From the NCBI GenBank assembly GCA_000724175.1, contig JPGV01000032.1:1-48671 (forward strand): DNA of 48,671 nt. Direction: 5' to 3'. Under the pieces are notes generated by a model, which worked only from the letters and a program-made list of their open reading frames with translations, was not told the DNA's origin and made no database searches. The translations under genes and the position numbers were made by a program. This stretch comes from [Candidatus Thermochlorobacteriaceae] bacterium GBChlB. Its GTDB lineage: Bacteria; Bacteroidota; Chlorobiia; Chlorobiales; Thermochlorobacteraceae. Of this stretch, positions 34,094 to 38,461 are shown one piece after another (positions within the stretch are counted from its first letter, which is position 1; each line of letters opens with the position of its first letter).

Positions 34094-34248
34094 TGCCGAG
34101 ATTGGTTTTTGCGTTTTGGACTGGGTAACGCTATATTTGCGCCTTTCCGTTTTAGAACAGTCGCTTCTGATTCAGCGATTTTTTTATTCGTTTTATTCGT
34201 CAAATTAAACTTTTCTAACCAAACCATCTCGCGGGACAGGACAGAATT

Positions 34249-36475: not shown

Positions 36476-36500
36476 AGGGACGAGCGTCCTTGCTTTTTTT
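36476..36500 (+). terminator. Possible intrinsic terminator after the PpiD-type gene
   Basis: AGGGAC and GTCCTT pair (6 bp, one G-T) around GAGC, followed by GC and seven T. It lies 119 bp after the PpiD-type stop and 12 bp before the methyltransferase start, so it could equally be a leader hairpin of the latter. The rest of 36358-36511 shows no gene. Confidence 0.45.
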
Positions 36501-36511
36501 GCAATCAACCA

Positions 36512-37144
36512 ATGCAAATACAATTTCCGCCCGAAGCCTTTCTGCGACAAGACGAAACGCCCGACGAGCAGTTCTACGAGTATCCACGCTTCGTCGCGCA
36601 TATCGACGACGGCGCCATCGCGGCTGTAACGCAGCTCTACCGCGAGTATTTCGCGCCCAATTCGGCGATTCTGGATTTGATGAGCAGCTGGATAAGCCAT
36701 TTGCCAAACGATGTCGTTTATCGCCGCGTCGTCGGCTTAGGTATGAACCGAGAGGAGCTTTCGCGCAATAAACAGCTCACGTCGTTTATCGTTCAAAACC
36801 TGAACACCACGCCGACATTGCCGTTTTCAGATGAAGAGTTTGACGGCGCGGGCTGCTGTGTCTCGATTGATTATCTCACCAATCCCGTCGCCATATTGCG
36901 CGAGGTCGGTCGTGTCTTGAAGCCCAATGCGCCGTTTGTAGTGACCTTTTCCAATCGGTGTTTCCCGACGAAGGCGATTGCCGCGTGGCTCTATACCAGC
37001 GACGAAGACCATTTGCATTTGGTCGCTGCATTCTTTCGCGCTGCCGGAAATTGGACGGACATTGAACTGCTCAACCGCTCGCCGAAGCGTGGCGACCCGC
37101 TTTACGCCGTTGTGGCGAAACGCGCGCCGTCTGCTCATGCCTGA
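36512..37144 (+). CDS. SAM-dependent methyltransferase-like protein
   Basis: A 210-aa cytosolic protein. ILDLMSSWISHLP (about 50-62) is a motif-I variant; SIDYLTNPVAILREVGRVLKPNAPFVVTFSNRCFPTKAIAAWL resembles motifs IV-V of class I methyltransferases and LNTTPTLPFSDEEFDGAGC the motif-III region. The usual GxGxG of motif I is replaced by DLMSSW, a pattern seen in one subgroup of uncharacterised methyltransferase-like proteins, so SAM binding should not be assumed. Substrate is unknown. A perfect 8-bp hairpin (37138-37160) spans its stop codon. Confidence 0.7.
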   Translation: MQIQFPPEAFLRQDETPDEQFYEYPRFVAHIDDGAIAAVTQLYREYFAPNSAILDLMSSWISHLPNDVVYRRVVGLGMNREELSRNKQLTSFIVQNLNTTPTLPFSDEEFDGAGCCVSIDYLTNPVAILREVGRVLKPNAPFVVTFSNRCFPTKAIAAWLYTSDEDHLHLVAAFFRAAGNWTDIELLNRSPKRGDPLYAVVAKRAPSAHA

Positions 37145-37160
37145 CTTCGCGCGTCAGGCA
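37138..37160 (+). other. Hairpin over the methyltransferase stop codon
   Basis: TGCCTGAC and GTCAGGCA form a perfect 8-bp stem with a 7-nt loop (TTCGCGC). It includes the TGA stop (37142-37144). No T-run follows (AATCATT), so it is at most a weak terminator or an mRNA 3'-end stabiliser. Confidence 0.5.
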
Positions 37161-37201
37161 AATCATTGCAACATTGAACAGCGACGGCTATCACGCGCCC
37201 T

Positions 37202-37234
37202 GCGCACGTCATCTTGAACATAGATGACATGCGC
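37202..37234. other. Strong hairpin in the 37145-37512 intergenic stretch
   Basis: GCGCACGTCATCT and AGATGACATGCGC pair over 13 positions with one C-A mismatch, around a 7-nt loop (TGAACAT). This is the longest stem in the region. No T-run follows on the plus strand. A 97-codon open frame (37214-37507) starts in it, but its Cys-rich, unrecognisable translation makes it a poor gene candidate. Confidence 0.55.
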
Positions 37235-37390
37235 CTCGTAAAAAATTGCAACGATTTTTCAGCGCCGTGCAAGGTTTTTTGCATCAGAAATTCGATTCCT
37301 AACCCTCGATTTTTCCACGACTTACTACTTCACTACGCAGAAAATACGCAGCAGTGGTTTCAAAATTCCTTGTTATCTCGCACCCGTAAC

Positions 37391-37439
37391 ATTCACTGCG
37401 AGTCCTGCTGCCCTCGCAATGAATACCTCGGCAACGAGG
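37391..37439. other. Two adjacent hairpins, the first REP-like
   Basis: ATTCACTGCGAG (37391-37402) pairs with CTCGCAATGAAT (37413-37424) over 12 positions with one mismatch, loop of 10 nt. The stem sequence CATTGCGAG is also the core of the REP-like element at 44652. Next to it CCTCG-GCAA-CGAGG (37426-37439) is a perfect 5-bp stem with a GNRA-type tetraloop. Confidence 0.5.
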
Positions 37440-37450
37440 CAACGCTGTAT

Positions 37451-37469
37451 AAACGCATCTCTTGCGTTT
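37451..37469. other. Perfect 7-bp hairpin upstream of the receiver gene
   Basis: AAACGCA-TCTCT-TGCGTTT is a perfect 7-bp stem with a 5-nt loop, 44 bp before the receiver start. A further 6-bp stem, ACTATC-AAGAAA-GATAGT (37491-37508), ends 4 nt before that start. These would lie in the 5' leader of the receiver mRNA. Confidence 0.45.
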
Positions 37470-37512
37470 GGTTGAAAATTATTTCCAATAACTATCAAGA
37501 AAGATAGTCTCG

Positions 37513-37908
37513 ATGAAAGACATGATTCTAATCATCGATGGTGATGCGTGGGTGCGTCAACTGCTCACCGATTTCCTAACGCCGATGTATGGTGTCTCGA
37601 CTGCCTCGAGCGGAACAGAGGGCATAGAGCGCTACAACGAGCGCCGCGATGATTGGAGTTTGGTCATCACCGATTACAACGCGCTGCTCGCCAAAGGCGG
37701 AGACATCATCGGGCATAGTCGTGCTCATGACGCTGCGCTTCCTGTGATTGTAGCCACAGGCGGTCCGACCGACGTCGTCGGCGATGCGCTCGGAGCAGTG
37801 GGAAATGTCGCTGTCTGCGCCAAGCCGTTTGACTTCGCGCACCTTAGGAACATGATTGAACAATTTTTAGGCATAGAGGCGCGCCAGAAACCCAAACGAT
37901 TTTTTTAA
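37513..37908 (+). CDS. Stand-alone response-regulator receiver domain
   Basis: A 131-aa CheY-like single-domain protein. The phospho-acceptor is Asp54 (VITDYN), with Thr82 (IVATGG) and Lys104 (CAKPFD) in the expected places. The N-terminal acidic pocket reads IIDGDAW: Asp9 and Asp11 are present but the residue normally acidic between them is Gly10, so metal binding may differ. No output domain is attached, so it would act by protein contact or phosphotransfer. No kinase gene is adjacent; the sensor kinase at 1647-5048 lacks a receiver but is 32 kb away. Its leader is rich in hairpins. Confidence 0.85.
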   Translation: MKDMILIIDGDAWVRQLLTDFLTPMYGVSTASSGTEGIERYNERRDDWSLVITDYNALLAKGGDIIGHSRAHDAALPVIVATGGPTDVVGDALGAVGNVAVCAKPFDFAHLRNMIEQFLGIEARQKPKRFF

Positions 37909-37945
37909 GCACATTTTTTTCAAACAATTAAACACACTACCAGCT

Positions 37946-38461
37946 ATGCGTATCATTTTGGTTCTCTTGGCATTTTCAGCAAGCGTTTCCTTGACAAACG
38001 CACAAGCAGTGCTCACCGCTGTCCAACCGAGCAGCGTGCCTGCTGCGATTCTCAATACGCACAACGCGGCGTATCCGAACAACAAAGCTGCCGCGTGGAT
38101 GAAGCAGGGCAATGTCAATGCGCAATACGTCGCCAACTTTGGCACGAAAGGCGCAATGATGCGGGCGCGCTACACCAACGACGGCAAACAGCTGACCGAA
38201 ACCATGACCTACGTCGGCAAGCAAATCCCCGAATCTATTGCGGCGACCGCAAAGACAAAATATCCCGATTTCAAACTGATGTCGGCGACGAAAATCAAAG
38301 CGGTGACAAGCGGCAAAGAATGCTACAAAGTTCGCTTGCGCAAAGGTGTCTCGAAACTGACGTTCTACACCGACGCCAGCGGCGCCTACATCGAGGAAAA
38401 AGAAGCTCCGGCTGAAGCCGTTGAAGAGCCAGCCGACGAAAGCGCCGAAGGAGGCATCTAA
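37946..38461 (+). CDS. PepSY-like secreted protein
   Basis: A 171-aa protein with a signal peptide (MRIILVLLAFSASVSLTNA, then QAVL). The mature part, including VPAAILNTHNAAYPNNKAAAWMKQGNVNAQYVANF, QIPESIAATAKTKYPDFKLMSATKIKAVTSGKECYKVRLRKG and KLTFYTDASGAYIEE, shows two copies of the beta-lactamase-inhibitor/PepSY-like fold typical of Bacteroidota periplasmic proteins. A tail rich in Glu, Ala and Pro ends it. Function is unknown; such domains often inhibit or shield enzymes, which is not evidenced here. A good intrinsic terminator follows directly. Confidence 0.72.
   Translation: MRIILVLLAFSASVSLTNAQAVLTAVQPSSVPAAILNTHNAAYPNNKAAAWMKQGNVNAQYVANFGTKGAMMRARYTNDGKQLTETMTYVGKQIPESIAATAKTKYPDFKLMSATKIKAVTSGKECYKVRLRKGVSKLTFYTDASGAYIEEKEAPAEAVEEPADESAEGGI

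Follow-up and report, generated by a model that had tools for sequence, protein, structure and literature searches.

Small RNAs (sRNAs) of Bacteroides thetaiotaomicron are noncoding, intergenic, stably folded and in the range of 30-500 nt, and the gap described here resembles them in all of these respects (PMC7366714). High-confidence members of that set have a mapped transcription start site and an intrinsic terminator, whereas the candidate in the gap is known from sequence alone and no terminator was found for it. Among the 49 high-confidence sRNAs, 27 are strain-specific; hence, missing homologues are common (PMC7366714). RNase P RNA (RF00010) and tmRNA (RF00023) are of similar size (~400 nt), and the fold z-score of the gap comes close to the tmRNA range; they differ in that the gap has no Rfam match. 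Structured RNA candidates have been described from the same phylum (Chlorobi-1, Chlorobi-RRM, Lnt and SAM-Chlorobi; PMC2864571), none of which matches the gap in a cmscan search. The large ornate RNAs OLE, GOLLD and ROOL (PMC12286853) are long and highly structured, as is the candidate, but the Rfam scan gave no similarity to them and the candidate has one known instance. REP and BIME elements are likewise intergenic palindromes; these occur in many copies per genome, whereas the gap is single-copy.

The window is a stretch of 48,671 nucleotides from an uncultured relative of the green sulfur bacteria, with a genome assembly of 3.05 Mb in 51 contigs; its family, we infer, is that of Candidatus Thermochlorobacter in the order Chlorobiales. 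The gap proper (37145-37512, 368 bp) lies between two plus-strand genes, a methyltransferase-like gene and a stand-alone receiver-domain gene (Table 1). The most likely reading, with a probability of about 0.42, is that the gap encodes, on its minus strand, a noncoding RNA of ~375 nt that is highly structured and lineage-restricted; its transcription, strand, ends and any function are what we infer from the letters. As neither a consensus promoter, an intrinsic terminator nor a homologue was found, the minus-strand RNA stays a candidate. If real, it would be a sizeable structured RNA and, being confined to one lineage, of a kind that conservation-based screens would miss.

Table 1. Features of the gap and its flanking genes (pairing probabilities and helices on the minus strand are predicted)
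Feature	Position	Strand	Description
Methyltransferase-like gene (Methyltransf_11)	36512-37144	+	upstream neighbour of gap
Stand-alone receiver-domain gene	37513-37908	+	ATG at 37513
Stem	37138-37160		8 bp, perfect; spans methyltransferase TGA at 37142-37144
Stem	37202-37234		13 positions; one C.A mismatch on plus
Stem	37391-37424		12 positions; one C.A mismatch on plus
Stem	37426-37439	+	5 bp; GNRA (GCAA) loop
Stem	37451-37469		7 bp, perfect
Stem	37491-37508		6 bp; 4 nt upstream of receiver ATG
Candidate structured noncoding RNA	37138-37512	-	~375 nt; fills space between two plus-strand genes
Helix P1	37490-37509	-	7 bp; pairing probability 0.98
Helix P2	37472-37488	-	7 bp; one G.U on minus; probability 0.54
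Helix P3	37451-37469	-	7 bp, perfect; probability 0.94
Domain	37260-37447	-	long-range closing helix 37447-37440/37267-37260 of 8 bp with two U.G; probability 0.90
Hairpin within domain 37260-37447	37388-37427	-	15 bp; probability 0.91; plus-strand version 12 positions, one C.A
Second domain	37160-37257	-	outer 13-bp helix 37257-37245/37172-37160; probability 0.96
Hairpin inside outer helix	37202-37234	-	13 bp; probability 1.00; one U.G, which is C.A on plus
Terminal hairpin	37138-37160	-	37159-37139 on minus; 7-8 bp; probability 1.00; overlaps methyltransferase stop codon

Palindromes and coding potential

An earlier note on this DNA had listed six stems between the methyltransferase stop codon and the receiver gene, and all six were recovered at the positions given in Table 1. 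It had overlooked two weaker stems (37241-37259 and 37268-37283) and an outer stem of 12 positions (37160-37171/37246-37257), which encloses the 37202-37234 hairpin. Eight non-overlapping stems are present in the gap, compared with about one strong stem expected from shuffles. When non-overlapping Watson-Crick stems were counted across 37130-37512, the summed score was 55 against 16.7 ± 8.3 in 400 dinucleotide shuffles, and 0/400 scored as high. The shuffle control proposed in the earlier note places the stems far above chance and shows the gap folding better than shuffled sequence. Against a background of ~380 kb of own-genome sequence, the gap ranked first of 49 gaps of 200-700 bp in palindromic stems, fifth of 91 gaps by its best 130-nt segment and third of 81 by the z-score of the whole-gap fold (25 shuffles each), where it was first among gaps of at least 300 bp. 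Strong folding was also observed in another short co-directional gap (G000:C20:152874-153030; z ~ -5), which has no tRNA or Rfam match.

The gap carries no coding signal. A 97-aa open reading frame (37214-37507) has a codon score of 0.002 bits per codon, as against 0.19-0.54 in neighbouring genes, and was rejected as a gene on this non-coding score and the lack of a Pfam match. A pseudogene was also rejected, as stop-to-stop pieces from both strands had no Pfam match at E-values up to 10. No Rfam family, described riboswitches and leaders included, matched the gap in the cmscan search, and hits to SpF22 and mir-743 were discarded as far below gathering scores. Identity with RNase P RNA or tmRNA was rejected too, since no covariance model matched and the genome's own copies lie on two other contigs (C50 and C30).

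Strand and predicted architecture

Of the two strands, minus gives the better fold, which sits between the two gene ends. For 37138-37512, the minus strand gave -138.7 kcal/mol with z-scores of -5.68, -6.44 and -5.71 in three runs, compared with -106.5 kcal/mol on the plus strand, where z ranged from -2.8 to -4.8 across runs and spans (-2.82 for 37145-37512, -4.75 and -3.88 for 37138-37512, and -3.63 for 37380-37512). Coding-region controls mostly scattered near 0, with extremes of -3.07 and +1.05. For calibration, RNase P and tmRNA loci of the family (three of each) were folded in the same way and gave sense z-scores of -5.77 to -9.55 and antisense z-scores of -4.02 to -7.40, the sense strand being better in 6/6. 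In the model, the gap folds about as tightly as established functional RNAs of comparable size, and on this ground a noncoding RNA is plausible. G and U are more frequent on the minus strand, a bias that in itself aids folding and that shuffling corrects only in the z-score.

A second strand cue comes from imperfect repeats. Inverted repeats with one mismatch and 10 or more Watson-Crick pairs number just three, and all of them are interrupted by C.A on the plus strand, which on the minus strand becomes a U.G or G.U pair; the direction of the mismatches thus favours minus. In the outer helix of the second domain, for example, the pair in question is A.C on plus and G.U on minus. Three mismatches in the same direction would arise by chance about once in 200 cases if mismatch types are uniform, and once in 8 if only transitions are considered, so this cue is supporting but not decisive. 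The same G.U asymmetry is used as a strand cue by RNAstrand, whose authors found the assignment of strand surprisingly hard (PMC1892782). The share of G.U pairs on the minus strand (23/132) equals that of shuffled sequence, and the GNRA loop at 37426-37439 is the sole feature that points to plus. On the folding models, the strand implied by the earlier note is probably wrong, a single sequence being no proof of strand. When a hairpin cluster has been assigned to the wrong strand, folding of both strands combined with mismatch direction can in this way put it right.

The RNA would begin just outside the start codon of the receiver and extend as far as the stop codon of the methyltransferase, with three 5' hairpins followed by a domain closed by an 8-bp helix, another closed by a 13-bp helix and a terminal hairpin (Table 1). 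The terminal hairpin has no U tract on either strand. The simplest working mechanism would be a stable stand-alone regulatory RNA which, if it ran on, would lie antisense to the methyltransferase mRNA at its 3' end as well. The suggestion of a small RNA made in the earlier note survives as an option in this form, although moved to the minus strand and enlarged to the whole gap. That the gap represents a structured bacterial RNA of a new, multi-domain class (~375 nt, minus strand, so far in one species of the family that includes Candidatus Thermochlorobacter), with a fold about as tight as that of tmRNA and no known relative, is rather unlikely.

Palindromes may also act at the level of DNA, as sites for dimeric regulators, or be quasi-palindromes left by old inverted duplications or by slippage in replication. 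In either case they would have no function as RNA. Since most of the stems are Watson-Crick, both strands fold well, as expected for this explanation, and the 37202-37234 repeat is shaped like an operator dyad. RNA better explains the long-range helices around 37160-37257 and 37260-37447 and the direction common to all three mismatches, and both the whole region and the 37202-37234 repeat are single-copy in the genome, which leaves DNA-level palindromes improbable.

Expression signals and the plus-strand alternative

Upstream regions of the genome were found to be enriched for TTG-N19-20-TAnnTTTG, which is the promoter type of Bacteroidetes, with 10 full matches having a 19- or 20-nt spacer; one example lies at 34109, before a SurA/PpiD-like gene. 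The TAnnTTTG element alone occurred 27 times in own-genome upstream regions against 9 in shuffled sequence. No site of this type was found in or adjoining the gap on either strand. The sole candidate promoter on the minus strand is weak and sigma70-like (TTGACG-18-GATGAT, 37560-37531), and a transcript from it would start near 37524. A search of both strands from 36600 to 38400 gave no intrinsic terminator. Motifs resembling a Shine-Dalgarno (SD) sequence were present upstream of 12/188 long open reading frames (control 5), and a near-absence of SD motifs is likewise reported for Bacteroidetes (PMC6847099). In its promoter type and scarce SD motifs, this genome of the order Chlorobiales has Bacteroidetes-like expression signals. 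As SD motifs are hardly used in the genome, the hairpin at 37491-37508 is unlikely to act as an SD switch, and SD sequestration by it was rejected.

These signals bear on the main rival of the minus-strand RNA, a plus-strand element that would form a structured spacer, or a 5' leader, within a transcript covering the methyltransferase and the receiver, the hairpins acting in stability, processing or receiver translation. Both flanking genes lie on the plus strand, one stem is GNRA-looped on that strand, the plus fold is also better than shuffled (z of -2.82, -3.63 and -4.75), and read-through is possible because no U-tract terminator separates the genes. The plus strand has a worse minimum free energy and z-score than minus, however, all three interrupted repeats are broken by C.A on it, the gap has no promoter of the genome's type, and the low number of genes with SD-like motifs makes an SD-masking leader unlikely. 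The plus-strand element is considered doubtful. The receiver leader suggested in the earlier note is weakened by the better fold of the opposite strand, the missing genome-type promoter and the scarcity of SD motifs.

A terminator-like hairpin with a T7 tract was observed at 36476-36499, ~12 nt upstream of the methyltransferase ATG. It may be an attenuator, or else terminate transcription of the PPIase gene upstream.

Relatives and flanking genes

No second copy of the whole region or of the 37202-37234 hairpin was found in the 3.05-Mb genome. The earlier note had raised a cluster of REP-derived elements and a genome search for copies as its check, and this suggestion falls with the result; its broader interpretation of structured noncoding DNA is borne out by the fold statistics, the codon score and the lack of protein and Rfam matches. 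Dense hairpins, one of them spanning a stop codon, do recall a REP or BIME cluster, but with a single copy, and with covariance models of the two halves matching nothing else in the genome save a weak opposite-strand self-match in the same region, such a cluster is hardly credible for this genome at the sensitivity of these searches.

No homologue of the gap was detected in 98 order-level or 394 phylum-level genomes. A DNA search of 40 close relatives gave nothing similar except a short match to a coding gene, a 2.2-kb query gave nothing over the gap in eight family genomes, and the DNA of the gap was absent from plasmids and phages, as was its exact hairpin pattern from viral contigs. Among 20 relatives, covariance models built from each half of the gap gave no convincing match, and a minus-strand model found nothing in the other 97 order genomes; these models rest on a single sequence and hence have a short reach. 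The 394 phylum genomes gave just two kinds of chance-like match of 25-26 nt, both to coding genes. In the first, 37225-37250 agrees at 25/26 nt with a trehalose-synthase-like gene, on the antisense strand of its 5' coding end, in a number of genomes that belong to a single genus of the order (an alpha-amylase-like gene of trehalose synthase type in Chlorobiaceae-like genomes, named from sequence by eye). It was judged to be chance, as the reading frames differ and the match does not extend, and so was the second, of 25 nt to an amidohydrolase-like gene in one genome (G256), which is in another reading frame and also without extension.

The lack of conservation would be expected if the gap were functionless, fast-evolving intergenic sequence that by chance falls at one extreme of the fold distribution, or if it were decayed mobile DNA. 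In three members of the family and one of the order, the methyltransferase orthologue has a downstream neighbour that differs from the one in this genome, so conserved synteny was rejected; each relative having a different neighbour, the site is a rearrangement point, which also fits functionless sequence. Against this stand the stem score reached by 0/400 shuffles, the first rank by fold among gaps of at least 300 bp and a fold z-score close to the tmRNA range, and functionless sequence is regarded as quite unlikely.

A contig of Candidatus Thermochlorobacter aerophilum has a methyltransferase match of 74%, the same value as in family member G006. Relatives of the protein with ~55-74% identity are scattered in Hymenobacter, Rubrobacter, Acidobacteria, Chloroflexi and Armatimonadota, suggesting horizontal transfer. 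A palindromic, repeat-like element, TCATTCTGA...TCAGAATGA, comes after the methyltransferase in another genome (G010). The family has no orthologue of the receiver, whose best relative in the eight family genomes is 33% identical, and no relatives of it were found in viral contigs or plasmids. Its first acidic site reads IIDGDAW, so that one of the usual two acidic residues seems to be glycine, and the phosphoacceptor (VITDYN), the threonine (VATGG) and the lysine (CAKPF) are intact by appearance.
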